From a virus, in IMG/VR virus record IMGVR_UViG_3300003886_000001, positions 55,666 to 119,665 of that record: DNA of 64,000 nucleotides. One strand, 5' to 3'. The notes beneath the pieces are model-generated. The model worked only from the letters and a program-made list of their open reading frames with translations, was not told where the DNA came from and did not search any database. Every line of letters starts with the position of its first letter. Position 1 is the stretch's first letter. Both the position numbers and the translations under genes were made by a program. This document shows positions 18,343-31,900 of this stretch, piece by piece.

Positions 18343-18365
18343 AGTCTTCCTTTCTCAAAATGAGA

Positions 18366-18390: not shown

Positions 18391-18466
18391 CTCTACGGCA
18401 TCCCCCCGTCGTGCTCTTATCCTATAGTGGGACCCGCACTGTCTAGGCGTACGTCCTAGGTAGCTA

Positions 18467-18492
18467 TACTATAGGCCGAGTGCGCATGAGAA
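18467..18492 (-). promoter_or_regulatory. TTCTCAT-class promoter
   Basis: Minus strand: CATTCTCAT, 12-bp spacer, TATAGTA. Located within the last codons of the 95-aa PFAQ gene and duplicated at 18048. Confidence 0.8.
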
Positions 18493-18756: not shown

Positions 18757-18759
18757 GCG

Positions 18760-19056: not shown

Positions 19057-19061
19057 AGCTA

Positions 19062-19087
19062 GAGTATAGGATAAGGACCTGTGAGAA
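19062..19087 (-). promoter_or_regulatory. TTCTCAT-class promoter (TTCTCAC), leaderless output
   Basis: Minus strand: TTTCTCAC, 12-bp spacer, TATACTC, TAGCT, ATG at 19056. Confidence 0.75.
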
Positions 19088-19098
19088 ACATTAGGACC

Positions 19099-19131
19099 AA
19101 AGACGCCCCCTCTGCTTAGAAGGGGCGCTTA
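19099..19131 (-). terminator. Terminator hairpin
   Basis: Minus strand: AGCGCCCC, loop, GGGGCGTC, then TTTGG. It would stop minus-strand transcripts that run antisense through 19245-19503. The rest of 19132-19209 shows nothing recognisable. Confidence 0.6.
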
Positions 19132-19209
19132 TGAATGAGCGTCCAGCTTGTGTGTTTATTCGGAAGCTCCCCTTATACTACATCTTCCCCAGGTTAGAAA
19201 GATGAACAC

Positions 19210-19239
19210 TTGACAGGCCGCCACTTAGTGGACTATACT
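19210..19239 (+). promoter_or_regulatory. Sigma70 promoter, leaderless output
   Basis: TTGACA, 18-bp spacer, TATACT, TGAGC, ATG at 19245. The spacer contains the palindrome CCACT-T-AGTGG, a possible operator. Confidence 0.8.
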
Positions 19240-19244
19240 TGAGC

Positions 19245-19343
19245 ATGCTTATGGTCATAGTAACCCTGATAGCCGGCGTGGCATTCATCATCGTATCATA
19301 CTTTCTAGGGAGCCAGGATGGCGAAAACGCCGAAGATAATTAG
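19245..19343 (+). CDS. Single-helix membrane protein (32 aa), leaderless
   Basis: MLMVIVTLIAGVAFIIVSYF is one transmembrane helix, followed by a polar acidic tail (GSQDGENAEDN). ATG is 5 bases after a consensus -10. Overlaps the next gene by 26 bases. Very short, but promoter, frame and composition agree. Confidence 0.6.
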   Translation: MLMVIVTLIAGVAFIIVSYFLGSQDGENAEDN

Positions 19344-19503
19344 GCGAGAATCCTACCCGTACGGTTACCTGGACCTGTGCGAGGACAGAATACTTGTCCA
19401 TCCCGCTAGCTACGCTACGATAGCCCAGAGGGACAGCCTCATGCAAGACGCTCTACTGTACGCGGCTAACGCTAGCAAGCCCGTTAAGGTGCTTCCAGGC
19501 TAA
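19318..19503 (+). CDS. Hypothetical protein (61 aa)
   Basis: YPYGYLDLCEDRILVHPAS resembles the first strand pair of the PFAQ family (LDL-x-x-x-x-I-x-V), and LMQDALLYAANASKP is a following helix, but the PFAQ motif itself is absent. Could be a very divergent member or unrelated. Plus-strand island in a minus-strand region; tail overlaps the convergent gene. Confidence 0.55.
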   Translation: MAKTPKIIRRESYPYGYLDLCEDRILVHPASYATIAQRDSLMQDALLYAANASKPVKVLPG

Positions 19504-19672
19504 CGCTAGCAAAGGCTTCCTGGGGACTCATACCTTTCAGGAAGCAGTCCTTCACTTCCTGTTCGTGCTGCTTGTACCAACTACTCCATACGGTGCGTGT
19601 AACGGTCCCTACGCGGTCTTGCAGCGTATGGACGACTGTCACAAAGCCTCTGAATTCTCGTGTAGTAAACAT
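19484..19672 (-). CDS. Hypothetical protein (62 aa)
   Basis: FRGFVTVVHTLQDRVGTVTR strands, then helix WSSWYKQHEQEVKDCFLKG and MSPQEAFASVSL. GTAGGAG lies close to the ATG. Last gene of the operon that begins at 20094. Confidence 0.55.
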   Translation of the reverse strand: MFTTREFRGFVTVVHTLQDRVGTVTRTVWSSWYKQHEQEVKDCFLKGMSPQEAFASVSLEAP

Positions 19673-19676
19673 GCTC

Positions 19677-19844
19677 CTACCTCATCTCCTGTAGCTTTGT
19701 CGACAGGAGATGGATTCTCTCCCGTCGCGCTTGGATGCTTTTCTTCAACTGAGGCGACCTTACCCTTCTCTGCTTGCCTTGCCAGTACAGGTCAGCGTCA
19801 AGCAGGAAAATTCTCAGGCTATCCGCAGTCTCTTTATCAATCAT
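19677..19844 (-). CDS. Basic helical protein (55 aa)
   Basis: ATG overlaps the stop of the upstream gene (ATGATTGA). Helix ETADSLRIFLLDADLYWQG, then Arg/Lys-rich QRRVRSPQLKKSIQARRER and a coiled-coil-like end IHLLSTKLQEMR. Possibly nucleic-acid binding. No family recognised. Confidence 0.6.
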   Translation of the reverse strand: MIDKETADSLRIFLLDADLYWQGKQRRVRSPQLKKSIQARRERIHLLSTKLQEMR

Positions 19845-20094
19845 AAACAACAGGACCCTTTCCTTCTTCTTTCCGCAGCGTGTTGTACTCCGTTATAGTG
19901 ATGAACACGTCTGGGAGATAAATTGTGGTACCAAGTCGGGGGTCCTCAGGAAGTGCATCCCAACCTCGATACCCTTCATCGTAGTAGGAGACTTCGGCAC
20001 TAGTAGTACCGAGGACTACCACTTGATAGACTGTCCGAGGGTTGCCTTGGGCGTTATGTGTTGCGCAGAACCTCTGGACTGTTCTGGTAGGCAT
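19837..20094 (-). CDS. TxxEY-family small protein
   Basis: 85 aa, ribosome site AAAAGGAG. RTVYQVVVLGTTSAEVSYYD, then TTIYLPDVFITITEYNTLRK. The late motif (strand, LPxxxITxxEY, helix) is the signature of five other small genes at 20.96-23.02 kb. Function unknown. Confidence 0.6.
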   Translation of the reverse strand: MPTRTVQRFCATHNAQGNPRTVYQVVVLGTTSAEVSYYDEGYRGWDALPEDPRLGTTIYLPDVFITITEYNTLRKEEGKGPVVYD

Positions 20095-20113
20095 TGTGAG
20101 TATCTCCTTTTCT

Positions 20114-20139
20114 TATACTAGGCTAGTTTTCCATGAGAA
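20114..20139 (-). promoter_or_regulatory. TTCTCAT-class promoter
   Basis: Minus strand: AATTCTCAT, 12-bp spacer, TAGTATA, then AAAAGGAG and the ATG at 20094. Confidence 0.85.
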
Positions 20140-20464
20140 TTATGGAAAACGGCACTCGAAACACTATGATGCCATTATCCTTGAGAAGAGTTACTAGGTT
20201 AGCAGCGCCGACGGGATTCATAGAATGCACAATGAAGACTGTATCCTGTAACAGAGAAAAGTCTACTCCTCTCAGGCTGCTATAGACGTCCTCACTTCCC
20301 AGGTCATGGTCAAGGAACACGACGTCAGCCTCACCTAGCAGTCCCGTATCAAAGACGGTAGAATGCACAACGTCGCCTCTGATACCGTGACGGCGCGCCC
20401 AAGCACGAATAGTGCCTACCCGGCAAGTATCATCGTCAATAATCAAAGCCTTTGACATACTCAT
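20123..20464 (-). CDS. Receiver-domain protein of the cyclic-phosphate-processing type
   Basis: 113 aa. KALIIDDD (acidic pocket), ADVVFLDHDLGSEDVY (phospho-acceptor-like Asp in LDHDLG) and TVFIVHSMNPVGAANLV. The LDHDLG plus HSxNPxGA pair is typical of receiver-like cPRec domains, predicted from gene-neighbourhood work to process cyclic phosphates in nucleotides or RNA ends rather than to signal. It overlaps the metallopeptidase gene by 29 bases. Stand-alone, with no kinase nearby. MSKALII at 20458 is an alternative start. Confidence 0.7.
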   Translation of the reverse strand: MSMSKALIIDDDTCRVGTIRAWARRHGIRGDVVHSTVFDTGLLGEADVVFLDHDLGSEDVYSSLRGVDFSLLQDTVFIVHSMNPVGAANLVTLLKDNGIIVFRVPFSIILMEN

Positions 20465-20888
20465 AGAAGCTTGGCGTCCCTTCGGTCACAGTCTCGTTGT
20501 GGTAGTCAAGCCGAGCCTCACACTGGAAGCCGTACAAGTCGGCGTCCCGCTCTGTTGGCAACTTACGGTAGACGGCGGCATCGTGTACAGTCTTTGCAGC
20601 GTCAAACGAGTCTCTTGCCGTTGGCATATTGAAGTGTTGCCATACGTGCCGGGCCTCGTGCGCAATGATGACAACTACGTCCCGGACGTCAGAGCATTGC
20701 AACAGGTTAAGAAACAGGTCGGCGTGTAACGTCTCGGGGGAAGGGTATGAGACTACTACCGAGGACGACACTATGGCGCCGGTTACGGACGGGTCATGGT
20801 AAGCATGGAGCGTAAACTCTACGTCCTCAAGGTGTAAGTCCGAGATGACGTCCTGGAAAATGCTGGTAGCAACTACCTTCAATTCCAT
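20436..20888 (-). CDS. HExxH metallopeptidase-like protein, leaderless
   Basis: 150 aa. VVIIAHEARHVWQHFNMP (HEARH at about 76-80) and downstream ERDADLYGFQCEAR, where Glu or Asp could be the third ligand. N-terminal half is beta-rich (VEFTLHAYHDP, VVVSYPSPETLHADLF). Resembles small phage zincins of unknown substrate. The ATG is 4 bases after TACCATG; no ribosome site. Confidence 0.7.
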   Translation of the reverse strand: MELKVVATSIFQDVISDLHLEDVEFTLHAYHDPSVTGAIVSSSVVVSYPSPETLHADLFLNLLQCSDVRDVVVIIAHEARHVWQHFNMPTARDSFDAAKTVHDAAVYRKLPTERDADLYGFQCEARLDYHNETVTEGTPSFYEYVKGFDY

Positions 20889-20892
20889 GCTT

Positions 20893-20918
20893 CATGGTAT
20901 GCCACCTTAGCATGAGAA
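20893..20918 (-). promoter_or_regulatory. TTCTCAT-class promoter, leaderless output
   Basis: Minus strand: CTTTCTCAT, 12-bp spacer, TACCATG, AAGC, ATG at 20888. Confidence 0.8.
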
Positions 20919-20923
20919 AGATT

Positions 20924-20952
20924 AGAATAACCCCGCCAATTGACGGGGTTAT
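20924..20952 (-). terminator. Terminator hairpin
   Basis: 9-bp stem ATAACCCCG/CGGGGTTAT with an 8-nt loop, then TCTAATCTTTCTC on the minus strand. Ends the 23.37-20.96 kb operon just before the next promoter. Confidence 0.8.
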
Positions 20953-20958
20953 CTGGAC

Positions 20959-21141
20959 TTACCGGGTTTCCCATGACATGGCGGAGTGTAGCATATACTC
21001 CCGTTCCGTCACTTCCAGCGGGTAGAGTGTTACTGCCTGCCGGGGAAGGTTAGGGAGGTTCCGATACACGCGGCGTTCTCCATCCTCTGTTACCACGTAG
21101 AGCGTCTTTCTTGGGGTATAAACAGCCTGGACAATTGTCAT
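20959..21141 (-). CDS. TxxEY-family small protein
   Basis: 60 aa, GGAAG site. MTIVQAVYTPRKTLYVVTED, VYRNLPNLP, VTLYPLEVTEREYMLH. Most compact member of the six-gene family; shares the MxxVQ head, the YLV-like strand and the VTxxEY end. Confidence 0.65.
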   Translation of the reverse strand: MTIVQAVYTPRKTLYVVTEDGERRVYRNLPNLPRQAVTLYPLEVTEREYMLHSAMSWETR

Positions 21142-21142
21142 G

Positions 21143-21403
21143 TTACTTCCACCTCAGTATTGGGTGTTCTCCACGGTCTTGAGCCTTCTCCAAGCGTTCC
21201 TGGAAGTCATATTCTTCTTCCGTTATGGACAGCGGGGCTAGCAAGATGATTCTTCCGCCCCTTAATGGGATATCTTCCAACCTAGTATAAACTCGGTGGT
21301 CCATGAACACACACTCCGTCCTTAGGAGTCTCCTGCGCTTCACAGTGCGGACCAGATACAGTATCCCTCTATTCTCATTGTGGACGTGCTGTACTATTAC
21401 CAT
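21143..21403 (-). CDS. TxxEY-family small protein
   Basis: 86 aa. MVIVQHVHNENRGILYLVRT, VYTRLEDIPLRGG, IILLAPLSITEEEYDFQERL. ATG overlaps the previous stop (ATGGTAA). Longer C-terminal helix than its neighbour. Confidence 0.65.
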   Translation of the reverse strand: MVIVQHVHNENRGILYLVRTVKRRRLLRTECVFMDHRVYTRLEDIPLRGGRIILLAPLSITEEEYDFQERLEKAQDRGEHPILRWK

Positions 21404-21669
21404 TTTTCCATCTTGGACAATAGACTCTTGAGGACGGGGTTGCGGTTGGACTCCAATTCGTTTTCCAAGTCGGAGTATTCATTCCACGTTACACGGTAGC
21501 TTGGAAGCTCGATGAAGTCTGTTTGGGGGAACCGATAAAACACCTCCTCAAGGGTCCGGCACAAGTAACGCTTTGCTGCCGGGATATTCTCCACAGTGTC
21601 TGCTTCTAGGACCAGGTAGAGCCGTTGGGTCTGCTCACCTTCATAGAAAAGACATTGTATCAGTCTCAT
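21397..21669 (-). CDS. TxxEY-family small protein
   Basis: 90 aa. Start at MRLIQCLFYEG (GGGGG 8 nt upstream), which aligns with the MxxVQ heads of the paralogs. QRLYLVLEADTVENI, CRTLEEVFYRFPQTDFIELP, YRVTWNEYSDLENEL. Overlaps its upstream neighbour by 29 bases. Confidence 0.65.
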   Translation of the reverse strand: MRLIQCLFYEGEQTQRLYLVLEADTVENIPAAKRYLCRTLEEVFYRFPQTDFIELPSYRVTWNEYSDLENELESNRNPVLKSLLSKMEKW

Positions 21670-21901
21670 ACCGTATCCCCCTTCCATGTTGGGCGATTAT
21701 CCGTAGGAACCGGCCCGAAGCTACCGTTAGTGGCGGCAGGGTTATTTTTTCGGCGGTCGGGTAGGCTCTTTCAACATCTTCCAGCATCTTGAACAGTCTA
21801 ACCCTCGCCTTGTCCACCCCGATAATGCCAACGCCGGGTACTGTGACATACACGGTCCGGTCGCCTCTGATTGTGTCCAGCCTCTGTACGAGACAGTACA
21901 T
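21641..21901 (-). CDS. TxxEY-family small protein (divergent)
   Basis: 86 aa, start coupled to the preceding stop (TAATG). MYCLVQRLDTIRGDRTVYVT, FKMLEDVERAYPTAEKITLP, LTVASGRFLRII. The EY motif is altered to GRF, but head, strand and spacing are kept. Confidence 0.6.
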   Translation of the reverse strand: MYCLVQRLDTIRGDRTVYVTVPGVGIIGVDKARVRLFKMLEDVERAYPTAEKITLPPLTVASGRFLRIIAQHGRGIRYETDTMSFL

Positions 21902-22071
21902 TATGACCCGAGGAAGCCGTGCCGCATGGCGATGCGCTTCTCTATCATGCGCAGTTTCGCTTGGCGGTGCGGGTCATGCTTGGGCACTCGCGCCCGCAAT
22001 TGCCACAATTCGGTTTCCGTCAAGATGGCTACCAGTTTACTCCACCGGTCAAATTCGGATTCTTTACGCAT
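21901..22071 (-). CDS. Small helical basic protein (56 aa)
   Basis: RKESEFDRWSKLVAILTETE, LWQLRARVPKHDPH and RQAKLRMIEKRIAMRHGF: two basic helices. Start overlaps the 54-aa gene; stop touches the next ATG. No family recognised. Confidence 0.6.
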   Translation of the reverse strand: MRKESEFDRWSKLVAILTETELWQLRARVPKHDPHRQAKLRMIEKRIAMRHGFLGS

Positions 22072-22228
22072 GGCGCAGGTCCTCGTAGTCCGCGTCCGTA
22101 AGGAAGACGTCCGCCGTAAGGTCATAGTAGCAGTGTTCGCCGGTTGACGGTGTCCAGCCGTACAGTACGCGGTGTCCATTGACGGTCATAATCGGTTCTC
22201 CTTGTGAGGGGCGCCAGTCTGTTTCCAT
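22064..22228 (-). CDS. Small protein (54 aa), leaderless
   Basis: METDWRPSQGEPIMTVNGHR, VLYGWTPSTGEHCYYDLTAD and FLTDADYEDLRHA. The last stretch, LTDADYEDL, recalls the TxxEY ending of neighbouring genes, but the head is different. ATG 5 bases after TATTTT of a consensus promoter. Confidence 0.6.
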   Translation of the reverse strand: METDWRPSQGEPIMTVNGHRVLYGWTPSTGEHCYYDLTADVFLTDADYEDLRHA

Positions 22229-22233
22229 ACTTC

Positions 22234-22262
22234 AAAATATCACATAAAGGGCCGGCTGTCAA
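22234..22262 (-). promoter_or_regulatory. Consensus sigma70 promoter, leaderless output
   Basis: Minus strand: TTGACA, 17-bp spacer, TATTTT, GAAGT, ATG at 22228. The -35 lies in the centre of a perfect palindrome. Confidence 0.85.
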
Positions 22263-22271
22263 GAGCCGGCC
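22250..22271. repeat. Perfect inverted repeat centred on a -35 box
   Basis: GGCCGGCT-CTTGAC-AGCCGGCC on the minus strand: 8-bp arms with most of the -35 in the loop. Could be an operator and, followed by CTTT, also a terminator for transcripts from upstream. The surrounding 22272-22393 stretch shows no credible gene. Confidence 0.7.
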
Positions 22272-22393
22272 ACTAATCGGTGTACTATCACCTATGTGCC
22301 CCCTGCTAGTGTATGCACGTCGTCCGCTACGCATAGCCTGTGATATGTCCAGCCGGTTGTGTCTCGGTGGTCAAATTCTCAGGCCAGAGAACG

Positions 22394-22642
22394 TCATTCG
22401 TACGCTAAGGCCAATTCTGGCCTAGGCGTTGTCCAGGGCCGTACCACGTCGCGTCTAGTCTCCGCGTGACAGCACTTGCACTCCCGCCAATGTACCAATT
22501 CATAGTCAATTACCCCATCGAAGTCTGGCCATTTTTCGACCTGGTTAATCGCATTTTCCGTTGTGTCTGCAATAATGGGCACGTTGGTATACCCTTCTCC
22601 GCTCATCCACAGATTCCCGATAATCGTTGCACGGTACATCAT
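22394..22642 (-). CDS. Hypothetical protein (82 aa)
   Basis: Ribosome site AAGAAAGGGCG. MMYRATIIGNLWMSGEGYTN strands, helix TTENAINQVEKWPDFDG, then Cys-rich HWRECKCCHAETRRDV, a possible half zinc site. No family recognised. Confidence 0.6.
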   Translation of the reverse strand: MMYRATIIGNLWMSGEGYTNVPIIADTTENAINQVEKWPDFDGVIDYELVHWRECKCCHAETRRDVVRPWTTPRPELALAYE

Positions 22643-22654
22643 CCACGCCCTTTC

Positions 22655-22762
22655 TTAGTCACACAACGCTTCATAGTCTGCCCAGTCTTCACACTCTGCT
22701 TCCGAGTCGTAGGTGTCCGGGATAAACTCGTCACTTTGGCGTTCCGTAAGAAAGTCATCCAT
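22655..22762 (-). CDS. Acidic small protein (35 aa), leaderless
   Basis: MDDFLTERQSDEFIPDTYDS, then EAECEDWADYEALCD: strongly acidic, with two Cys. The ATG lies 5 bases after TAGACT of a consensus promoter. Acidic DNA-mimic-like character is possible, but not shown. Confidence 0.55.
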   Translation of the reverse strand: MDDFLTERQSDEFIPDTYDSEAECEDWADYEALCD

Positions 22763-22767
22763 AAAGT

Positions 22768-22796
22768 AGTCTACCCCTTCCCGTCCACGCTGTCAA
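22768..22796 (-). promoter_or_regulatory. Consensus sigma70 promoter, leaderless output
   Basis: Minus strand: TTGACA, 17-bp spacer, TAGACT, ACTTT, ATG at 22762. Overlaps the last codons of the upstream gene. Confidence 0.85.
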
Positions 22797-23023
22797 CTAT
22801 CGTCCCATGCATGGGATAGCTGAATCAGATATTCTGGCTCTACTACATGCAACGGCTGCAATTCTACGATATCGTATCCGCCGGCTTTGGTCGGCAAGTC
22901 CGCCACGTTGTATTGTACGGTGCCCTTATCCTTCCGCAAGTCCTCGAACGAGTCTCCGGTCCTCACTAGATACAAGAATTCGGAGTCTGTCGTCCAGATA
23001 GTCTGTACAAGCGCTAGCTTCAT
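22793..23023 (-). CDS. TxxEY-family small protein
   Basis: 76 aa, GGAGGAG site. MKLALVQTIWTTDSEFLYLV, VQYNVADLPTKAGGYDIVEL, QPLHVVEPEYLIQLSHA. Clear member: ALVQ head, YLV strand, L-x-PL-x-V-x-x-x-EY end. Confidence 0.65.
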   Translation of the reverse strand: MKLALVQTIWTTDSEFLYLVRTGDSFEDLRKDKGTVQYNVADLPTKAGGYDIVELQPLHVVEPEYLIQLSHAWDDS

Positions 23024-23025
23024 TT

Positions 23026-23367
23026 TTACTCCTCCGCGTACTTGCTACGGTCAAGCGTACGGTGGGCGTCACCGTGCCGGTTAATCCATACCGTGCGGAC
23101 CAGCCTATCCTCGGGGTTAATGACAAGTACCAAGTCCTGCTTGCCCTGGTATGGCTGCCGGTAGACCGCTTTGACTACTTTCTGCCCTTCTACTTCCGCT
23201 TCGACCAGGACAGCCTTCCGGCTGTCAAACACTGCCGGCAGGTCAATATGGCCGTACTGGTCGGTAGTTGCAGCCTGTCGCGCATGGGCGCTGTAGCGCA
23301 ACAGTGCCGAAAATTGCAGGTTACGGGCCGGGGCCGGGAAGAAAACGTCTTTGTGATAAAGGGCCAT
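23026..23367 (-). CDS. Hypothetical protein (113 aa), leaderless
   Basis: Helical N terminus (RNLQFSALLRYSAHARQAAT), then VVKAVYRQPYQGKQDLVLVI and RLVRTVWINRHGDAHRTLDR. The VKAVYR ... LVLVI ... VRTVWxN ... HxTLDxSKY layout resembles small RNase-like or toxin-like folds seen in phages, but this is only a resemblance. ATG 5 bases after a consensus TATAAT. Confidence 0.6.
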   Translation of the reverse strand: MALYHKDVFFPAPARNLQFSALLRYSAHARQAATTDQYGHIDLPAVFDSRKAVLVEAEVEGQKVVKAVYRQPYQGKQDLVLVINPEDRLVRTVWINRHGDAHRTLDRSKYAEE

Positions 23368-23372
23368 AACTG

Positions 23373-23400
23373 ATTATAGCACTCTGACAGCCAGTGTCAA
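23373..23400 (-). promoter_or_regulatory. Consensus sigma70 promoter, leaderless output
   Basis: Minus strand: TTGACA, 16-bp spacer, TATAAT, CAGTT, ATG at 23367. The inverted repeat TGACA-CTGGC-TGTCA covers the -35. Confidence 0.85.
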
Positions 23401-23541
23401 GTCCGCATAATCGTGACCGGCATACCCTCCCGGTATCGCCGGCTCATTCTGTACAAGTAAGATGGAGTCCCGGAGTACGACTAAGCGTGTCTTGCCATAC
23501 CGCCCCATGATGCTCTTTGCTAGGGATTCATGGAGTATCAC
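23374..23541 (-). CDS. Small protein, GTG start (55 aa)
   Basis: VILHESLAKSIMGRYGKTRL, then VVLRDSILLVQNEPAIPGGY. Begins one base after the preceding TGA. An internal ATG (23508) would give 44 aa. The stop overlaps the -10 of the next promoter. No family recognised. Confidence 0.5.
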   Translation of the reverse strand: MILHESLAKSIMGRYGKTRLVVLRDSILLVQNEPAIPGGYAGHDYADLTLAVRVL

Positions 23542-23542
23542 G

Positions 23543-23680
23543 TCATACTCGATGCACGCTTACCACTACGTAGCCCAGGCCCTTTGCTAGTGCCGCGATG
23601 GACTCTACATTCCATTCTTTACCGCGACACATAAGCATGGCGTACTTTCCATTCTTCTCCACCTTGACAGCGTATGCCAT
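23543..23680 (-). CDS. Small protein (45 aa)
   Basis: Preceded by GGGAGGGGC. MAYAVKVEKNGKYAMLMCRG, helix EWNVESIAALAKGLGYVVVS. Strand-strand-helix-strand mini-domain. No family recognised. Confidence 0.55.
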   Translation of the reverse strand: MAYAVKVEKNGKYAMLMCRGKEWNVESIAALAKGLGYVVVSVHRV

Positions 23681-23708
23681 GCCCCTCCCGACCGGAATTG
23701 TGAAAACT

Positions 23709-24026
23709 TTATCGAGCGTATCCCCACAGGGTAAGATGTTCTTTCAGCACAGGCCCTACTCTGGACGACAGGGTAGAGTCGTCGGGCAAGGTAGAAAACT
23801 CCCAGTCTGTGCCACCTACAGCTTCTAAGGCTTTGGCCAAGGCTCGCGCCTTCTTTTCACTTGGGATGTTGTCTATGATGCGGCGACCGGACGCGCAGTG
23901 ACTAATTTCCCATCCACGAATACCGCTTAAATTGTGATGGACTGCTAGGTGTTCGGTCAACACGGCTTCTATTTCTTCCGGTTTCCTCTTGCCACCGTAC
24001 ATCGGCCGGAAAGTCCCGGTTACCAT
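23709..24026 (-). CDS. Hypothetical protein (105 aa)
   Basis: Start overlaps the previous stop (ATGGTAA). PEEIEAVLTEHLAVHHN, WEISHCASGRRIIDNIPSEK, KARALAKALEAVGGTDWEF: alpha/beta, with a strand preceding KARALAKALE that resembles small phage DUFs with a similar loop and helix. Function unknown. Confidence 0.6.
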   Translation of the reverse strand: MVTGTFRPMYGGKRKPEEIEAVLTEHLAVHHNLSGIRGWEISHCASGRRIIDNIPSEKKARALAKALEAVGGTDWEFSTLPDDSTLSSRVGPVLKEHLTLWGYAR

Positions 24027-24196
24027 CCCGCGTCCTTGAGCGCACGCTTGGCGGCTGTCACAGGGCGAGTGTGCGACGCGTAGTCGTCCGCGTACAGGTA
24101 GTCCGGCAGGTCCTCGGCTGCGAGGCCGGCAATGCTTTCCATCGCGTCATTCACTTGTTTCATCCATTGTTTATAGGTCATTTTCTTGGAATCCAT
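24020..24196 (-). CDS. WxxxVN-type small phage protein (58 aa), leaderless
   Basis: YKQWMKQVNDAMESIAGLAA, EDLPDYLYADDYASHTRPVT, AAKRALKDAGW. Pattern W-x-x-x-V-N ... GL-x-x-x-DL-x-D ... P-x-x-AA is a small family I know from many phage genomes; function not established. Paralog at 24973-25125. ATG 4 bases after TATAGTC. Confidence 0.65.
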   Translation of the reverse strand: MDSKKMTYKQWMKQVNDAMESIAGLAAEDLPDYLYADDYASHTRPVTAAKRALKDAGW

Positions 24197-24200
24197 ACCA

Positions 24201-24226
24201 GACTATACCTGGCCCTTCTATGAGAA
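24201..24226 (-). promoter_or_regulatory. TTCTCAT-class promoter, leaderless output
   Basis: Minus strand: GATTCTCAT, 12-bp spacer, TATAGTC, TGGT, ATG at 24196. Confidence 0.85.
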
Positions 24227-24233
24227 TCATTAG

Positions 24234-24261
24234 AAAAGACGCCCCTTGTGTAAGGGGCGCC
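24234..24261 (-). terminator. Terminator
   Basis: Minus strand: GGCGCCCCTT-ACAC-AAGGGGCGTC followed by TTTTC. Ends the single-gene transcript of the 24.3-24.6 kb gene. Confidence 0.9.
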
Positions 24262-24275
24262 TGTCTTGTGTGCGG

Positions 24276-24623
24276 TTACTTGACGGTTATCCGAACGGTG
24301 GCGTCGGCCGTGAACGGAAGCGTGGCCTGTACGTCCGCCGGCAGTTTCTTGATACCGGCAGCCTTGACGGTGAAGATGTCGGACGGATTCAACTTGAGCG
24401 CCCGCTGGACGCCCAACACTTCGCGCACGCGGTACAGGCGACGTTCAACTTCGGTGAGGGTCACGGTGTGACCGTTTGCGGTGTACTTGCCGCCCACGTC
24501 CCACCGCGCCTTCGCTTCGACCTTGAGAACGTTTGCGGCAGTCTTGGCGGCCGCTTCGGCGGCGACAGACTCGGCAAGGGCGTCGATAAGCTGCTCATCC
24601 GTGAGGTTCTTGAGTGCTTCCAT
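24276..24623 (-). CDS. Hypothetical phage protein (115 aa), leaderless
   Basis: Start MEALKN at 24623, 5 bases after TATTTT. Helical Ala-rich N-terminal half (LIDALAESVAAEAAAKTAAN, VLKVEAKARW), then GGKYTANGHTVTLTEVERRL and a basic C-terminal part. No DNA-binding signature. Monocistronic unit with its own promoter and terminator. Confidence 0.65.
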   Translation of the reverse strand: MEALKNLTDEQLIDALAESVAAEAAAKTAANVLKVEAKARWDVGGKYTANGHTVTLTEVERRLYRVREVLGVQRALKLNPSDIFTVKAAGIKKLPADVQATLPFTADATVRITVK

Positions 24624-24628
24624 ATCTG

Positions 24629-24657
24629 AAAATATCATAAATCGGGCCGTGATGCAA
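24629..24657 (-). promoter_or_regulatory. Sigma70-type promoter, leaderless output
   Basis: Minus strand: TTGCAT, 17-bp spacer, TATTTT, CAGAT, ATG at 24623. The stretch GATTTATGATAnnnTCAGAT is shared with the promoter at 25131, and both have GATTAAGG and an inverted TTCTCAT box upstream. Confidence 0.75.
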
Positions 24658-24713
24658 GGGGGTAGGGCCTTAATCTGTTTCTCATGTTATTCTCATGCTA
24701 GATAGTTTTCACG

Positions 24714-24744
24714 AAAGAAAAAGACGGGCCATAACGGCCCGTCT
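24714..24744 (-). terminator. Terminator
   Basis: Minus strand: AGACGGGCC-GTTAT-GGCCCGTCT followed by TTTTCTTTC. Textbook intrinsic terminator for the 24759-25125 operon. Confidence 0.95.
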
Positions 24745-24758
24745 GCTTAGGCTTAGGC

Positions 24759-24980
24759 TTAGACTCGCCCTGCCGGGTACGCCGCCATGTACTCCACGTC
24801 TACCGCTGAGCAGAGAATCGGGCTAGTGCCACGGCGAATAGTGGCCTTGAGAAGCCGGGCCAGCCGACAGGCGACGGGCCACGCCGCGCCGGAAGCGGGG
24901 CCGTAGAAGCACACACGCGGACGAGAACCGCGCGTTATGATAGTTTCGTACCCGAGGATATAGACTCTGTAGTCACGCAT
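24759..24980 (-). CDS. Hypothetical protein (73 aa)
   Basis: MRDYRVYILGYETIITRGSR, PRVCFYGPASGAAWPVACRL, ARLLKATIRRG, then VDVEYMAAYPAGRV. Basic alpha/beta protein. Start overlaps the 50-aa gene. No family recognised. Confidence 0.6.
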   Translation of the reverse strand: MRDYRVYILGYETIITRGSRPRVCFYGPASGAAWPVACRLARLLKATIRRGTSPILCSAVDVEYMAAYPAGRV

Positions 24981-25125
24981 TCTCTGTCCTCCGCGCTGCT
25001 TCTATGGGCGTCATGCCCGCCTGGTATTCTTGCCAGTAGGGGAACGCCCCGAAGGCTTGGACCGTGAATCCCGTATGTTCGACCAGCGCTTCATTCACTT
25101 TCTGAATCCACCGTTCGAATCCCAT
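24973..25125 (-). CDS. WxxxVN-type small phage protein (50 aa), leaderless
   Basis: GFERWIQKVNEALVEHTGFT, AFPYWQEYQAGMTPIEAAR. Paralog of the 58-aa protein at 24020 (W-x-x-x-V-N start, TPxxAA end). ATG 5 bases after TACCGT. Confidence 0.65.
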   Translation of the reverse strand: MGFERWIQKVNEALVEHTGFTVQAFGAFPYWQEYQAGMTPIEAARRTENA

Positions 25126-25130
25126 ATCTG

Positions 25131-25159
25131 ACGGTATCATAAATCCGGCCGGTTAGCAA
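25131..25159 (-). promoter_or_regulatory. Sigma70-type promoter, leaderless output
   Basis: Minus strand: TTGCTA, 17-bp spacer, TACCGT, CAGAT, ATG at 25125. Sister of the promoter at 24629. Confidence 0.7.
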
Positions 25160-25188
25160 GTCCCTAACCTTAATCATATTCTCATCAT

Positions 25189-25216
25189 AGAAAAGGGCGG
25201 GTAATTAGCCCGCCCC
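25189..25216 (-). terminator. Terminator
   Basis: Minus strand: GGGCGGG-CTAATTA-CCCGCCC followed by TTTTC. Ends the DUF6011-gene transcript. Confidence 0.9.
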
Positions 25217-25222
25217 TTAGTC

Positions 25223-25720
25223 TCAGAATCGCTTCGCGCATACAGGGCCGATACCTGCTTCAATCGAAACCGGGTCGGTGAGCGTGCGGCCACAGATACC
25301 GCATACTCCTAATTCGTGGCCGTAGCGCGCGGCTGCTACCTTAGGGTCGGCCAGAACGCTTTTCAGCACGTCGCAGTAGGCGCCGGCGTAGAATCGCTTC
25401 GGAGTCTGTGCCCCAAGTTTGCGGTAGTCGTCGGAAGTCTGTGCTTTGACGAATATCCACCCGGCCCACCGTCCGCGGTCGACCTTGTCCACCTTGAGGA
25501 ACCGCATGATGCCCTGAGAATCCGGCGCGGCATAATGCCCGCTTGGAATACCTGACAGGTCAATGGTAGGGGCGGTTACCCGCAGCGTGAACAGGCGCTT
25601 AATCTCACGGGAAGCATCCGAGACACTAGGACTGTTCCCGAGGAAGGCGCGGGCGGAGCCTTGACAAGAACGCTCGCCGGCCAGCTTCATAATGAACGAT
25701 ACCTGCTTAGTCGTTGCCAT
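25223..25720 (-). CDS. DUF6011-containing phage protein
   Basis: 165 aa. N-terminal KQVSFIMKLAGER helix, middle beta-rich part (GIMRFLKVDKVDRGRWAGWI), and a C-terminal Cys4 domain LGVCGICGRTLTDPVSIEAG plus IGPVCAKRF, the DUF6011 pattern found in many phage and plasmid proteins. A zinc site for nucleic-acid binding is likely; function not established. Nearly leaderless (6 bases after the -10). Confidence 0.75.
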   Translation of the reverse strand: MATTKQVSFIMKLAGERSCQGSARAFLGNSPSVSDASREIKRLFTLRVTAPTIDLSGIPSGHYAAPDSQGIMRFLKVDKVDRGRWAGWIFVKAQTSDDYRKLGAQTPKRFYAGAYCDVLKSVLADPKVAAARYGHELGVCGICGRTLTDPVSIEAGIGPVCAKRF

Positions 25721-25726
25721 ACAGGT

Positions 25727-25755
25727 AACGTATCACGTGGGACGCCGTCCGTCAA
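25727..25755 (-). promoter_or_regulatory. Sigma70 promoter, leaderless output
   Basis: Minus strand: TTGACG, 17-bp spacer, TACGTT, 6 bases, ATG at 25720. GATTAAGG and an inverted TTCTCAT-type box lie just upstream, as at 24629 and 25131. Confidence 0.75.
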
Positions 25756-25777
25756 GAGCCTGCACCTTAATCATTCT

Positions 25778-26275
25778 CTCATGTTCTACTCACTAATCTT
25801 TCTCTCATACTAAGGCCATACATCCACATATACATAGCTTAATCCTCTCATAAAGACAGGTTATTCCACATCTACCTCTCATGTACACAGTATTTTCTCA
25901 TGATTCTTTCATGATTCTTTCATAATGTACTCATACTCGATGATTAACATGAGAAGATGAGAGCTTTTTCACATTTAGAGCTTATTTTTCTCTCATATTC
26001 TCATCTGCGGCCCGTCTTTTTCTCATGATAATTTGGTGATAATGCATATTACCTTCATGTTTCACATACTTCTGGCCCATATTATCATCAGAATCTCATG
26101 AGACTCTCATATATCCCTAGTTTCTCTAATTCTTCTCTCATACTTTCCTCATCTTAGACTCACGTACTTAGTATACTCTCATGTAAATGGTTATATTCTC
26201 ATGTTTCACATGAAATTATCATCGTTTTCTCATAACCCCTGGGGTTTGAAAGCAAATCGGAGTCCCTGTTCTCAT
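25778..26275 (+). repeat. Array of 17 CTCAT boxes, candidate origin or control locus
   Basis: Seventeen CTCAT pentamers, most as TTCTCAT or CTCTCAT, all on the plus strand, irregularly spaced within 498 bp, plus ATGAGAA/ATGAGAG on the other strand near 25950. No -10 box stands 12 bp after most of them, and no credible gene is present. The box is the same as the upstream element of the promoter class described here. Confidence 0.85.
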
Positions 26276-26339
26276 AATCGGCCGCCCTCCCCCTTTATCA
26301 CCCCTAGGGGTATTTTTCAAACAAAACGGACTAAGCCCT

Positions 26340-26432
26340 CTATAAAAACCCCAAATTTAAAAATAAATAAACTTTTAGAAAAAAGGGAGTTAATAACCAA
26401 CTATAAAAACCCCAAATTTAAAAATAAATAAA
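26340..26432 (+). repeat. Direct repeats in an AT-rich gene-free stretch
   Basis: A 32-bp sequence (begins CTATAAAAACCCCAAATTTA) occurs at 26340-26371 and 26401-26432. It is followed by degenerate AATCTGGGAAGGAAA-like units up to about 26580. Whole stretch 26280-26617 has no credible gene. AT-rich with iterated repeats, as in phage replication origins. Confidence 0.8.
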
Positions 26433-26617
26433 ATCTGGGGAAGACACCTAAAAACTCAAGTTTAAAAATCTGGGAAGGAAACCCCCAAATCTAGGAAGAT
26501 TCTGGAAAGAAAAAATAAAATCTAGGGAGGAAAATTGTCTGGGGATAGAAATTCTGTAGAGATAATCTGGGAAGGAAACCTAATAATGAAAAACATGGTG
26601 AGTAAAAAATCATAAAA

Positions 26618-26642
26618 TGAAAATCCCCCTTTCGGGGGAATT
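26618..26642 (-). terminator. Terminator
   Basis: Minus strand: TTCCCCC-GAAA-GGGGGA then TTTTC. Ends the small-protein operon 28.4-26.6 kb. Confidence 0.9.
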
Positions 26643-26643
26643 G

Positions 26644-26895
26644 TTAGAACTTGTTTTCCTCATCATCGTGGCAGCGATGCCAACGAGGTAATCTAAACCC
26701 ATGATAGGTCTTCGGATGGAGAGCATCATAATACTCATTGGCTAGTTGTCTAATATCTGTAGCATAATTTTGCAGTAGAATTAGGTCATAGGCAGTCATA
26801 TCCTCCATGTCGAACTTCGTATTTCTCAATTTAAATTCAGTTAATGTACCCCGTATACTAGATAATGCAGTTGCTAGTTCTTCAGCTTTTATCAT
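26644..26895 (-). CDS. Small helical protein, paralog pair member (83 aa)
   Basis: GGAAAG site. MIKAEELATALSSIRGTLTE, helix LILLQNYATDIRQLANEYYD, then ALHPKTYHGFRLPRW. Aligned with the next gene over its full length (MIK-x-EE, YYDxLHPxxYHxFRLP). Function unknown. Confidence 0.65.
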   Translation of the reverse strand: MIKAEELATALSSIRGTLTEFKLRNTKFDMEDMTAYDLILLQNYATDIRQLANEYYDALHPKTYHGFRLPRWHRCHDDEENKF

Positions 26896-26907
26896 TGACT
26901 TTCCTTT

Positions 26908-27135
26908 CTAATCATGAAAACTAGGTAGTCTAAAATGGTGATAATTGTCCGGATGTAGTCCATCATAATATTCGTGTATCAATCCCTTAGTCTCTGTTGA
27001 AATATTTTGTAGTACAATTAAACCTTCAGCACCAATATCCTCTAAATCAAAATGGGTATTACCTCTATTCTTTAGGTCTTGAAGTTGTGTTTTTATGTTT
27101 AGTAGAACGGTAAATATTTCTTCATATTTTATCAT
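26908..27135 (-). CDS. Small helical protein, paralog pair member (75 aa)
   Basis: AAAGGATAATCAATG start. MIKYEEIFTVLLNIKTQLQD, LIVLQNISTETKGLIHEYYD, GLHPDNYHHFRLPSFHD. Paralog of the preceding entry. Overlaps the 44-aa gene by ATGA. Confidence 0.65.
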   Translation of the reverse strand: MIKYEEIFTVLLNIKTQLQDLKNRGNTHFDLEDIGAEGLIVLQNISTETKGLIHEYYDGLHPDNYHHFRLPSFHD

Positions 27136-27266
27136 TGATTATCCTTTCTAACTTGTTGGATGAGGGCTTCAAAAAATGAAACTAAAAAGTCTACGTCGTC
27201 TTCATCCACATCTTTGAGTTTGATGTTTATGTCCTTTAGGGCGGCCAATAAATCCTCCTTTATCAT
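27132..27266 (-). CDS. Small helical protein (44 aa)
   Basis: MIKEDLLAALKDINIKLKDV, then DEDDVDFLVSFFEALIQQ. Head resembles the two MIK-starting neighbours but lacks the YYD...FRLP end: a truncated or independent member. Stop overlaps the next start (ATGA). Confidence 0.6.
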   Translation of the reverse strand: MIKEDLLAALKDINIKLKDVDEDDVDFLVSFFEALIQQVRKDNQ

Positions 27267-27268
27267 GT

Positions 27269-27490
27269 CTAAACAGCCGTTTGTTCTTCATCCACGGGGG
27301 AGAAGTTATCGGGCTGTAATAGCTCTGATTGTATTTCTTCAAGGGATGAGATTATGTAACTTACCTCTTCGCGGAGACTAGAAAATTCTTTTATAGTCAT
27401 TGCTACTTCTAGGTATTCTACTATGGATATATCAGCTATAAGCTCTGTTATAGCGTCCAATTTTGCTTCTAGAGTTTTGAAGTTATACAT
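27269..27490 (-). CDS. Acidic helical protein (73 aa)
   Basis: MYNFKTLEAKLDAITELIAD, VAMTIKEFSSLREEVSYIIS, SLEEIQSELLQPDNFSP. Coiled-coil-like, net acidic. Overlaps the upstream gene. Function unknown. Confidence 0.6.
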   Translation of the reverse strand: MYNFKTLEAKLDAITELIADISIVEYLEVAMTIKEFSSLREEVSYIISSLEEIQSELLQPDNFSPVDEEQTAV

Positions 27491-27804
27491 TTTTTAGTCA
27501 ACACCTCATGCATTTCTTGTACCTTGTCTGCTAACCTTGGGTACTGAGCCGGGGATAAATGCTTCATGGCCTTTAGTGTACTGTCCAGTTGCTGGTTTAC
27601 GGATTCTAGGTATAAAAGTTTATCTATATTACCTAGGATGTCTTTTACATAGTAGTGAACATCGTACGCCTCTGTTTGTAAAGTCACGAGGTCTGCCTCT
27701 GGCAAGTCTGGTATGACAATCTCCTGTAACACTTTTGTTGCCGACTCTAGTTTTTTCTGTATTTCAGTTTTATCGGACATGTAAGCGGACATTGTGTCAG
27801 ACAT
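27469..27804 (-). CDS. Acidic helical protein (111 aa)
   Basis: TEIQKKLESATKVLQEIVIP, LVTLQTEAYDVHYYVKDILG, LYLESVNQQLDSTLKAMKHL and RLADKVQEMHEVL: long heptad-rich helices. Start overlaps the 55-aa gene. Function unknown. Confidence 0.6.
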   Translation of the reverse strand: MSDTMSAYMSDKTEIQKKLESATKVLQEIVIPDLPEADLVTLQTEAYDVHYYVKDILGNIDKLLYLESVNQQLDSTLKAMKHLSPAQYPRLADKVQEMHEVLTKKCITSKL

Positions 27805-27964
27805 TTTCTTTAAGTCCTAAATAAAAGTTGTCTATAATTTCTTTAAGTTTTTCTACTCTTGCTAAAAGGCCCGGATTACTTTGTACCTGAGCGTTACCTA
27901 AATCCTTTAGAGCAGTTTCGGCGAATGTTAATTTTGCGCTTATCGTTGCATAATCGTAATGCAT
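27797..27964 (-). CDS. Small helical protein (55 aa)
   Basis: AGAAAGGACTAAAATG start. MHYDYATISAKLTFAETALK, LLARVEKLKEIIDNFYLGLK. Same style as the other members of the cassette. No family recognised. Confidence 0.6.
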   Translation of the reverse strand: MHYDYATISAKLTFAETALKDLGNAQVQSNPGLLARVEKLKEIIDNFYLGLKENV

Positions 27965-27965
27965 T

Positions 27966-28253
27966 TTAGTCCTTTCTAACTCTGTCGAGAAATGCAGAAT
28001 AAGCTACTTCTAAGGCTTTTCCGAGGCTAGGGGTAAGCGTAGCACTATATTCAAGTATTTCATCTAAATCCCCAATGTCTACACAATCCCTTTGAAACTC
28101 TTCCGGGCTAATAAGGATGTTGTCTTGGATTACCCACATGGGTCCTTCAACGTAGCTGCCATCCGGATTATTAGCCTTATCAATTATGCGGCGGTCACCT
28201 TCGGATAGATATTCTCCATGTAGGTAACTACTACCACATCTAATTAATCTCAT
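27966..28253 (-). CDS. Hypothetical protein (95 aa)
   Basis: GAAGGGAAAAT site. LIRCGSSYLHGEYLSEGDRR, MWVIQDNILISPEEFQRDC, DLDEILEYSATLTPSLGKAL. Less helical than its neighbours. ATG overlaps the stop of the frameshifted gene. Confidence 0.6.
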   Translation of the reverse strand: MRLIRCGSSYLHGEYLSEGDRRIIDKANNPDGSYVEGPMWVIQDNILISPEEFQRDCVDIGDLDEILEYSATLTPSLGKALEVAYSAFLDRVRKD

Positions 28254-28412
28254 ATTTTCCCTTCAGTTAATGCTTTGGTGGTGAACACTCTTATTTTACC
28301 GGTTTTTTCTCTCATTCTTACAATATCGTCAAAGTCACCCTCTAACTCCCAATCCAATATGTCTAAGAATAGCGTCTAGGGTGTTTTCTAGTTTAGTAGT
28401 GAAGTCGGACAT
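28250..28412 (-). CDS. Small protein with +1 frame change at CTT-AGA-C
   Basis: From ATG 28412 the frame gives MSDFTTKLENTLDAIL and then stops at 28335 after 25 codons. The +1 frame, entered by skipping the A of CTT-A-GAC, reads DILDWELEGDFDDIVRMREK and on to the stop at 28250, coupled to the next ATG. Joined product is 53 aa and looks like the neighbouring helical proteins. The slip site resembles the CUU-AGG-C type of +1 frameshift site. A simple 1-base insertion is the alternative. Confidence 0.5.
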
Positions 28413-28716
28413 ATCTACCCGTAAAATAATTAACGGCCTCAAAGCTACAATAGACGGTCAGGCTGGTAAACGAGTCTCCGTTGAGCATATAAAGAAATAC
28501 ATTCTTAGGGTCACGGGTTAGGTAGACTGTACCCTCTAGGTATAGATTGTTAGTGCAGGTAGCGTCTATTGTCACACGTTGCGGAATATTTACACTAACT
28601 CCATAAAGTTCAATTGCACTACTTCCTATGACATCATAAGAATTGGCAACCGGTTGAACGATAACGGTGCATCCTCCCAAAATGAAGATGCCTAATATAA
28701 AGACCAGCTTCCACAT
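28393..28716 (-). CDS. Small lipoprotein (107 aa)
   Basis: Signal peptide with lipobox: MWKLVFILGIFILGGC, Cys at 16. Mature part beta-rich: VIVQPVANSYDVIGSSAIEL, VSVNIPQRVTIDATC, LYLEGTVYLTRDP and VYCSFEAVNYFTG. Phage lipoproteins act as o-spanins or superinfection-exclusion proteins; nothing here decides. RBS AAAGGAGGGG. Confidence 0.7.
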   Translation of the reverse strand: MWKLVFILGIFILGGCTVIVQPVANSYDVIGSSAIELYGVSVNIPQRVTIDATCTNNLYLEGTVYLTRDPKNVFLYMLNGDSFTSLTVYCSFEAVNYFTGRYVRLHY

Positions 28717-28732
28717 ATCCCCTCCTTTCAGG

Positions 28733-28758
28733 TAGTATATGATATGTGGAGATTAGAA
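28733..28758 (-). promoter_or_regulatory. TTCTCAT-class promoter (TTCTAAT)
   Basis: Minus strand: TTCTAAT, 12-bp spacer, TATACTA, then AAAGGAGGGG and the lipoprotein ATG. A second perfect TTCTCAT lies directly upstream (28761-28767). Confidence 0.6.
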
Positions 28759-28767
28759 TGATGAGAA

Positions 28768-28878
28768 TTAGTCAGACTCTTTAGCGTATAATAGCTCTAC
28801 AAGCCTGTGCTCCACTATCTTTTCGAACTCTATCGCTTCTTCGTCTTCCTCAGGAATTGTATCTATTTCTTCTGACAT
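28768..28878 (-). CDS. Acidic small protein (36 aa)
   Basis: Site GTAGGAGCG. MSEEIDTIPEEDEEAIEFEK, then IVEHRLVELLYAKESD. Glu-rich single helix. First minus-strand gene left of the fibre module. Confidence 0.55.
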   Translation of the reverse strand: MSEEIDTIPEEDEEAIEFEKIVEHRLVELLYAKESD

Positions 28879-28900
28879 AGTTTTCGCTCCTACTTAGTAT
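28872..28900 (+). promoter_or_regulatory. Sigma70 promoter for the fibre module
   Basis: CTGACA, 17-bp spacer, TAGTAT, about 25 bases before the ATG at 28925. Divergent with the promoter of the 36-aa gene; the two -10 boxes overlap. Confidence 0.65.
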
Positions 28901-28924
28901 AGCACACTTAAAGAGAGACATAAA
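28896..28924 (-). promoter_or_regulatory. Possible sigma70 promoter for the 36-aa gene
   Basis: Minus strand: TTTATG, 17-bp spacer, TATACT. Strong -10, weak -35. Confidence 0.45.
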
Positions 28925-31900
28925 ATGAGAGGATACCCCCAGAAAAATTTGGAAGCTCTTTATCTGATGGAGATAGAACGTCAGAATCTTATTCCTTATA
29001 GTGAGTCTCCAATTTCGGTGGGAAGCGGTAATGGAAGTACTGCGACCGTTGTATACCAATCCAATGAAGTAGATTGGAACGGTAAGAAACGAGTATGGAA
29101 ATTAACTGCCATCTCTAATTATGCAGCCCGCTCATGGGGTTACACCGACTATAACTTAAGTGGAAATTTTACCTACAGGATAAGACTAAAAAATGTAGAT
29201 TCGCCACAAACAAAGCTTCTAGTATATAATTATTTCGGGGGGACGACAGGCACCTATACTGTAGTTATAACGTGGTCCGGAGCAATACCAACTATCACAT
29301 CAGGTACCGGAACAATAACTAACCTGGGAAACGATTGGTATGAATTTGTATTTACAGTGTCTGGAATTAATGCAGGAAATACCGGTCTTAGGTTAGACCT
29401 AGAAGTTGACCTAGTCACCGGAACTAAATCTATCTTTTTTGCAGATATACAAATGGTAGCCGGTACCACCCTACCACCATATGTCCCTACCACCCATAAA
29501 CAACTTCTATATGATTACACCGGACAGGGTAATGATGGTGTTCTGGGTACTGCTGATAAATCCGCTATTAACCCAGTAGGGGAGTATTTATGGCTATCGG
29601 GCACTACAAATAATTACATCTCTACCCCAAATAATACTGGTGGCACTGTTTATTGGGATATTACACATCTTGATGGTACGGTAACAACTGGTTCTACTAT
29701 TAATAAAACTATCTCTGTTGGAGTCGGACTACGAGCTTCAATCGTAGATATAAAGGTATATAGTGATGCCGAAAAAACAATTTTAATAGCTAATTTAAAT
29801 ATACCCAGAGATGCTCCTGGTGATGTCACACAACTATATAGTAAAGCTACTGGAGAATTATGGACTATTTCCACCACAACTAGTGGGGTTTCTTCGGCCC
29901 CAGTTTTTACCTCAGGGGGATTACTTCTCAATGGTGTAGGGCAGTTTGCTACAGCTACAATACCTGGATTAGATATTTCAGGGGTAACGGTCTCTGCACA
30001 TGCTAAGTTTGATTCAACTGCTACTGCCAATGGATACGCTGTTGGACTTGGCGGTGCCGGAGGAGACCACTCGTTACTCTCAGCTCGGGTTAACACCAAC
30101 GGATGGATGGACTTGTTTGTAAGAGACACAGCGGACACATTGTCGTCAACTAATGTGTTGAGTGCGTATACACAGGATGTAGACTCTTATATAACTCTTA
30201 GAACAAACACTACGTCAACCACCCTAGACTTAAATGGTGCGGAAATATCTACACTCACGCCACCGACGGCTCCTTTCTTGTACCAAAGAATCGTCTTGGG
30301 TGGCGCGTCCGATTCTCCGGCTTCACAGTCATTTAAAGGGACACTGGGAGTTGCTGCTGTGTATTCCAGAGAACTCTCTGCTACAGAGTCGTATCAAACG
30401 TATTCCGCTGCTAAAGATTTGTTAAATAAACGAGGCATAACTTTAGCTAATACTCCTCCAGTGAATAATATTAAAGCTGCTGCCACAGACTTAGGAGTTA
30501 CGCTAGCCAGCGGTTTTGAAGCGTGGGCCTCCAGTGTTTGGACGGCCGGAATGAGCTGGACCGTGTTAAGCCAGCCCACCACAGGCATCGAGCTGGACTT
30601 GCGAGGTAACGGCGCTTGCGCGGCGTGGTGGGGGGACGGCAATACCGACGCTTACGTCCTGCTGAACACCAGCGCTGATACGGTGTTGGCTCACACGTAC
30701 GCTTCGGCCGTCACTAGACCGGTAGTGGTGCTAGGGGACGTCACTAGGTGGAGCGGTCCGGCTTCGGTGCTCACGAGTTACGGAACCAAAACGCAGTACC
30801 TCCCAGCTTCCCTCGCACTCCTAAACGTACAGGGTAGCAATACTTTGTCTGGGGACGTGCAGTACCTCCCGGCGAACCTCACGTATCTATACGTAACGGG
30901 TAGCAATACCTTAAGCGGAGATGTAGTCGGGTTGCCTAGGGGTATGACTAGTTTTAATCTAGGTGGTAATAACACCATTACTGGCGATGTAGTTGGGTTG
31001 CCAACAACTCTTACTGTTCTCAATCTTGGGAATAATAACTTGACCGGGAGTATTATAAATCTTCCTAGGGCGTTGATAACTATAACTGTGGGTGGTAATA
31101 TTGCCTTAAGTGGAGATGTTAAGAATCTACCCACGGGTGTTCAAATAGTGGTACTTAACGGTCCTGTTGCTATAATCAGTACCACTACAATACTGCCAAC
31201 GCCCCTATCGGACATCAAAATCTCCAACATGACTACTGCCAGCGTCGATGATGTCCTGGAAGCCATGGCCGCGAATGTGCTGGACACGAAACCCCTCTCT
31301 AATCGCATCATTACCCTCAATGGTGGTACTGCTCAACCGCGCAGCACCGCTTCCGACGCCGCCGTGACCACCCTCACGACCGCAACGCCGCCGTACACGG
31401 TAACTACCATTCCCCCAACCAACCTAATTACCGGAAGTGACCTCATTTCTGACCCTGTTGGTACCGTTGGTTCTTCCACGGTTTCTCATGCAACTGAAAC
31501 TGTAACTGGATTGGGCTCAATAAATGTGGTAACATGGGTACAGGCGACTACGGCGGATATCATTTCTGTCACCAGCAACAGAACGTTTAATGTTACCCCC
31601 GGTGAAGCTTTAAATATTAGCATGTATATAAACAGTACATTGGCGTCCTCAGCCCGGCTTCAGGCAATTGTTACCGTTGATACTGTGGACTATTATTTGC
31701 AGGCAGACGGAGTAACTTGGAGCACTACGGCGTGGGAGTGGGAACCAGATGTTGGCACATTAAATACCTGGAATCGCTCTGTTACTGTAACTAATACCAT
31801 TCCAGCAGGCACGTCAGCTAGTTTGCACTTCTTATCCATGTATCGTAATACCGGTAGCTTTACCTTTAAGTTAGCAGCCTGGCAGGTAACTGAAGGCACA

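Follow-up and report, generated by a model that had tools for sequence, protein, structure and literature searches.

In iteron origins, such as the lambda ori and the plasmid RepA origins, an array of initiator sites lies beside an AT-rich unwinding region and shows helical phasing. Centromere arrays are likewise built from phased repeats in one orientation. To our knowledge, no replication origin has been mapped in phiYS40-like phages, and a literature search for one has found none. Among proteins that act both as replication initiator and as transcription regulator, DnaA is the best known (PMC8203912). In phage T4, oriF and oriG each require a MotA middle promoter together with an unwinding element, and oriE contains conserved iterons whose role has not been shown (PMC3016281). 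The link between transcription factor and origin firing has remained only indirect in T4.

Here, a gene-free locus in a 119,665-bp virus record (G000) is compared with these systems; the window, i.e., the whole stretch of DNA that was analysed, is the last 64 kb of this record. With moderate confidence, we read the locus from its sequence as the candidate origin from which a large lytic phage, a distant relative of the Thermus phage phiYS40, replicates its DNA. As in T4 oriF and oriG, the phage is large and has its own replisome, and a phage-specific activator box (in promoters placed near −30 and combined with a host-type −10) also lies beside an AT-rich unwinding element; unlike there, 15-22 boxes without a −10 and a conserved G+C-rich core are present. 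With oriE the locus shares clustered direct repeats that are conserved at syntenic positions in relatives, but the oriE repeats are evenly spaced 12-nt units without a link to a promoter box, whereas those described here are irregularly spaced, by varying multiples of the helix turn, and are identical to a promoter element. In having a phased array to one side of AT-rich DNA, the locus resembles the lambda and RepA origins, from which it differs by the irregular spacing of a 7-bp box and by the lack of a linked initiator gene, no initiator of the Rep_3 or DnaA family having been found. Short asymmetric boxes clustered beside an unwinding element are also typical of bacterial oriC with DnaA; the box, however, is another one, no DnaA domain occurs in G000 or its two relatives described below, and an exact DnaA box is found only in the array of one relative (G001). 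phiYS40 itself has a similar portal, family A polymerase, terminase, DnaB and DnaG, yet, unlike in G000, TTCTCAT-N12-TANNNT promoters, array and core are all missing from the 150 kb of it that were examined.

The gene-free locus and its array of boxes

The locus fills the gap 25721-26643 between two minus-strand genes (Table 1), and the earlier description of about 900 bp without a gene holds; the 76-aa plus-strand ORF inside (26201-26431) has no counterpart in the relatives. Within 498 bp of this gap (25778-26275) the pentamer CTCAT occurs 17 times on the plus strand, against an expectation of 0.64 from its plus-strand genome rate, and three times on the minus strand (25949, 25957 and 26098); of the pentamers that cluster most strongly in the G000 genome, it reaches the highest raw count. 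These numbers agree with the earlier note, which had counted 17 copies on one strand where chance predicts about one, and had read most of them as TTCTCAT or CTCTCAT; by our count, 14 of the 17 are YTCTCAT. The distances between neighbouring boxes, both here and in the corresponding array of G001, concentrate around multiples of 10.5 bp (at 11, 20-22, 30-32 and 41-43 bp), and this helical phasing is significant for adjacent exact boxes in both arrays (p<5e-5, under a null model in which boxes fall at random but at least 6 bp apart). The phasing points to protein molecules that sit on a single face of the helix. The 32-bp direct repeat and the degenerate repeat units in AT-rich DNA, both named in the earlier note, have been found to be real; the 10.5-bp phasing, the 59-bp core, a G+C step and the recurrence of the locus in two relatives go beyond that note.

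Table 1. Features of the locus and its surroundings (positions in the window).
Feature	Position	Strand	Remarks
113-aa early protein	23026..23367	−	closest gene to the core whose synteny with it holds in all three phages (identity 68% and 43%)
Left flanking gene, 165 aa, C-terminal DUF6011	25223..25720	−	in relatives not kept beside the locus
Early-type promoter (TTGACG-17-TACGTT) serving the left neighbour, whose ATG is at 25720	25727..25784	−	left edge of the array
TCTCAT box array	25771..26275	+	15 exact TCTCAT; 25 with at most 1 mismatch; multiples of ~10.5 bp
Conserved core CCCCTGGGGTTT-N5-CAAA-N2-GGAGTCCC-N2-TTCTCATAAT-NGN-CCGCCCTCCCCCT	26236..26294	+	59 bp
AT-rich tract with direct repeats, candidate DNA unwinding element	26300..26620	.	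A-rich on the plus strand; 32% G+C in core+60..+400
32-bp direct repeat, copy 1	26340..26371	+	
32-bp direct repeat, copy 2	26401..26432	+	copies 61 bp apart
Four AATCTGGG-type / AATCTGGGAAGGAAA-type repeat units	26432..26580	+	units at 26432, 26467, 26519, 26564
Intrinsic terminator of the leftward genes on the right side	26622..26642	−	right boundary of the locus

The box as a promoter element

The box had been described as the promoter box of this phage, and the spacing to a −10 bears this out: TTCTCAT with TANNNT exactly 12 bp downstream forms a sharp peak, with 21 of 51 copies in G000 (outside the array), 30 of 87 in G001 and 19 of 66 in the second relative, G004. The corresponding count for phiYS40 is 0 of 23, all promoter statements on this phage resting on a sequence scan made here. 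In Deinococcus-Thermus, leaderless genes have been reported to carry TANNNT as their −10 motif (PMC12340547); as ATG codons, moreover, peak 23-24 bp after the box in G000, G001 and G004, many transcripts from TTCTCAT-N12-TANNNT promoters are probably leaderless. Promoter boxes often have a second, TCTCAT-like half-site upstream; of the 35 pairs counted, 33 are spaced by exactly 9 bp. The resulting promoter class, TCTMAT-N3-TTCTCAT-N12-TANNNT, often with an ATG 23-25 bp after the box, is common to the three phages and absent in phiYS40.

That the array boxes are not simply promoters, as stated before, has been confirmed: of the 20 TTCTCAT copies in the two arrays (G000 and G001), none has TANNNT at 12 bp, compared with 51 of 138 outside (Fisher p=4.6e-4). 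The array boxes, moreover, pair mainly at 11 bp instead of the 9 bp seen in promoters, and a description of the array as a row of TTCTCAT promoters fails on both counts. The box also appears in reversed form. It lies (as ATGAGAG..GATTAAGG) just upstream of the −35 of the left neighbour's promoter, and sigma-70-type early promoters of the left module carry it in the same place, most clearly in G001, where the early promoters between 35,193 and 39,278 (plus strand) have ATGAGAA-N3-GATTAAG directly upstream of −35. These reversed boxes suggest that the same protein may act on early promoters as well.

Searches for the protein that binds the box gave neither an activator nor an initiator in Pfam and PHROG scans of the conserved proteins, and no phage sigma factor was convincing above the cut-off. 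A 66-aa early protein of winged-helix appearance is present in G001 and G004; G000 lacks a homologue of it. The box-binding protein could be a host protein.

Conserved core and AT-rich tract in related phages

By portal and family A DNA polymerase, the closest cultured phages are the Thermus phages phiYS40 and TMA (46%, 36% identity). Closer relatives are the uncultured G001 (201,951 bp), whose portal is 76% identical to that of G000, and the uncultured G004 (194,021 bp; polymerase 59% and terminase 63% identical), whereas a scan of genome contigs for further ones returned remote polymerase relatives only. G000 is a fragment, since its gene order shows that the part corresponding to roughly 130-192 kb of G001 is missing. 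The polymerase (13,603-16,428) and terminase (103,941-107,060) frames of G001 are longer than those of G000 (953 and 1039 aa vs 702 and 639 aa), probably owing to inteins. Just left of the window, G000 carries 32 predicted tRNA genes for nearly all amino acids (49,005-55,543; L005:9005-15543); RNA repair genes, among them those for an RNA ligase and RtcB, lie elsewhere in the genome, and a HATPase-domain protein followed by a RIIB-like protein (L005:2171-5217) forms an rIIA/rIIB-like pair.

G001 contains a syntenic array with 22 exact TCTCAT in 630 bp, oriented as in G000, and G004 carries core and tract at the same place without a box array. The random box distribution in relatives that the earlier note had named as a refutation is not what G001 shows, with its syntenic array, but the array is missing from G004. 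Inside the G001 array lie an exact DnaA box, TTATCCACA, and a near copy; no exact DnaA box is present at the locus in G000 or G004. The gene left of the G001 array is directed towards it and ends in a terminator-like hairpin.

The core follows immediately to the right of the array and partly overlaps it. Between G000 and G001 it is conserved nearly letter for letter, with 33 of 33 specified positions retained in its 37-nt right part, and in G004 it is the best match in 194 kb, with 37 of 49 positions of the full pattern (permuted cores reach 29 at most), although proteins of the three phages are only ~43-84% identical. Across the whole viral collection, only G001 and G004 match the core patterns, and no other contig matches two of them. 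In all three phages the core is syntenic and located beside the gene for the same 113-aa early protein. Homologues of this protein occur in phages of Streptomyces and, at 46%, in the Xanthomonas jumbo phage XacN1, and it is a candidate for a widespread takeover protein; as bait for further relatives it yielded one distant contig only. Folded as single-stranded DNA, the core is no more stable than its shuffles, so that no hairpin is claimed. An Rfam search of the locus found nothing, and among cultured phages no match to it came from blast, run as a near (22-30 kb) and as a distant (25.7-26.7 kb) search.

Adjoining the core, the AT-rich tract is among the least stable DNA of each genome, as computed from nearest-neighbour energies in windows over the whole genome. 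The least stable 200-bp window within 450 bp right of the core ranks 1 of ~1008 in G001 and 1 of ~969 in G004; the G000 tract ranks 10 of ~597 for 200-bp windows and 4 of ~1195 for 100-bp windows. In G004 the tract holds another repeat, TAGGTGGGTATTA, in three copies. All three phages show a G+C step at the locus, from 0.49-0.57 on the left to 0.35-0.39 on the right, which may be due to a foreign early module or a terminal repeat. In the window of G000, the G+C content falls sharply from 0.50-0.58 (~16,000-25,700) to ~0.37 (26,000-29,000).

A probable replication origin and alternative readings

The replication-origin reading, already put forward as a candidate in the earlier note, is favoured because a non-coding core is conserved, its position is syntenic in three phages, and an extreme unwinding region adjoins it. 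A conserved core and an extreme unwinding region at a fixed place are what an origin would be expected to look like. As in iteron-type origins, multiple same-orientation repeats lie beside an AT-rich unwinding element in G000 and G001; an initiator of a known iteron-type family has not been found, searches for the two families DnaA and Rep_3 giving no domain match in G000, G001 or G004. The family encodes a replisome of family A polymerase, clamp loader, DnaB, DnaG, a clamp-like protein and SSB, where the assignments of clamp, SSB, DnaB and DnaG rest partly on homology to phiYS40 and partly on a reading of the sequences. Three active T4 origins sit at switches of transcription direction (PMC3016281), which is also counted for the origin, as are the exact DnaA box and its near copy in the G001 array. 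Counted against it are the lack of an initiator among the proteins found, the absence of the array in G004, the G000 tract not holding rank 1, and the incompleteness of G000. GC skew at the locus, which the earlier note had named as a further check, gives no consistent picture. Skew was analysed raw and coding-corrected, with a change-point scan and bootstrap: the raw skew tracks gene direction without a switch at the core, and the strand-corrected third-position skew switches near −15 kb in G001, with a polarity opposite to the bacterial convention, and at other places in G004 and G000, so that no switch is reproduced across the three phages.

Other functions of the array have to be weighed against an origin. 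The boxes could form a sink or platform that titrates or concentrates the promoter-box activator and thereby delays or buffers middle transcription, with core and tract being incidental. This we consider unlikely, even though the array consists of the promoter motif without −10, its 15 exact TCTCAT represent a large share next to the 21 TTCTCAT-N12-TANNNT promoters of G000, and G004 dispenses with the array yet keeps the promoter class; a sink requires neither helical phasing nor a fixed place where a conserved core adjoins the least stable DNA of the genome, and in cis its dose climbs along with that of the promoters. The array might instead be an enhancer or operator of the adjacent leftward early promoter (25720), as an extended form of the reversed box, given that its first box is the reversed box of this promoter and that several G001 early promoters have the same element upstream of −35. 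This appears very improbable, as no early promoter adjoins the array in G001, where the left gene points to the array and ends in its terminator-like hairpin, and the other early promoters seen are served by single reversed boxes. We attach even less weight to an R-loop origin of the T4 oriF type, primed by a box promoter reading into the AT tract. Box elements do adjoin such a tract, as the MotA promoters of oriF and oriG adjoin their unwinding elements (PMC3016281), and the phage has an RNase H-like gene; the analogy drawn in the earlier note nevertheless breaks down, because neither the core box nor any TTCTCAT box of the array (0 of 20) has a −10 at promoter spacing, and no convincing sigma-70 promoter is directed into the tract.

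The G+C step that is sharp in all three phages, with small takeover-type early genes on one side, would also fit a packaging site or the boundary of a terminal repeat, in which the left early module is the terminal redundancy and the core a terminase cut or repeat end. The 113-aa neighbour is present twice in the record of XacN1, a phage with long terminal repeats. Still, this reading is distinctly doubtful: the terminase genes lie ~58 kb away in G000, the contigs of G000, G001 and G004 pass through the locus unbroken, and phased promoter boxes and an extreme AT tract are left unexplained. Least probable of all is that the locus, bound by a DNA-binding protein of the phage, serves partition (as a centromere) or organises the genome; of these two, the earlier note had listed partition. 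The phased same-orientation repeats do resemble centromere arrays, but neither ParB_N (PF02195) nor the ParA-type AAA_31 (PF13614) has a match in G000, G001 or G004, with positive controls, and the gene set, which resembles that of phiYS40 and includes rII-like genes, speaks for a lytic phage.

For the favoured reading as a replication origin, we propose that the promoter-box protein, or a relative of it, would fill the array cooperatively as a nucleoprotein platform, that the filled array would help to open the adjoining unwinding element, and that the opened element would let the phage replisome load, so that replication would start here. Such a protein at the origin would couple replication to the early-to-middle switch, or time it. 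Since G004 keeps core and tract without the array, the latter may be a regulatory or initiator module specific to the G000/G001 clade. A bolder version, which we advance only tentatively, is that the promoter-box activator itself is the initiator or an obligatory co-initiator, which would bind as a 9-bp tandem at promoters and as a one-faced, 10.5-bp-phased array at the origin, switching on middle genes and opening the origin alike. We provisionally group the locus with the phage iteron-like origins, of which it would be a variant. If this is true, it would offer a concrete 0.9-kb origin target, and core and tract with the array, compared with core and tract without it, would constitute a natural experiment on whether a phage transcription factor sets origin firing directly.
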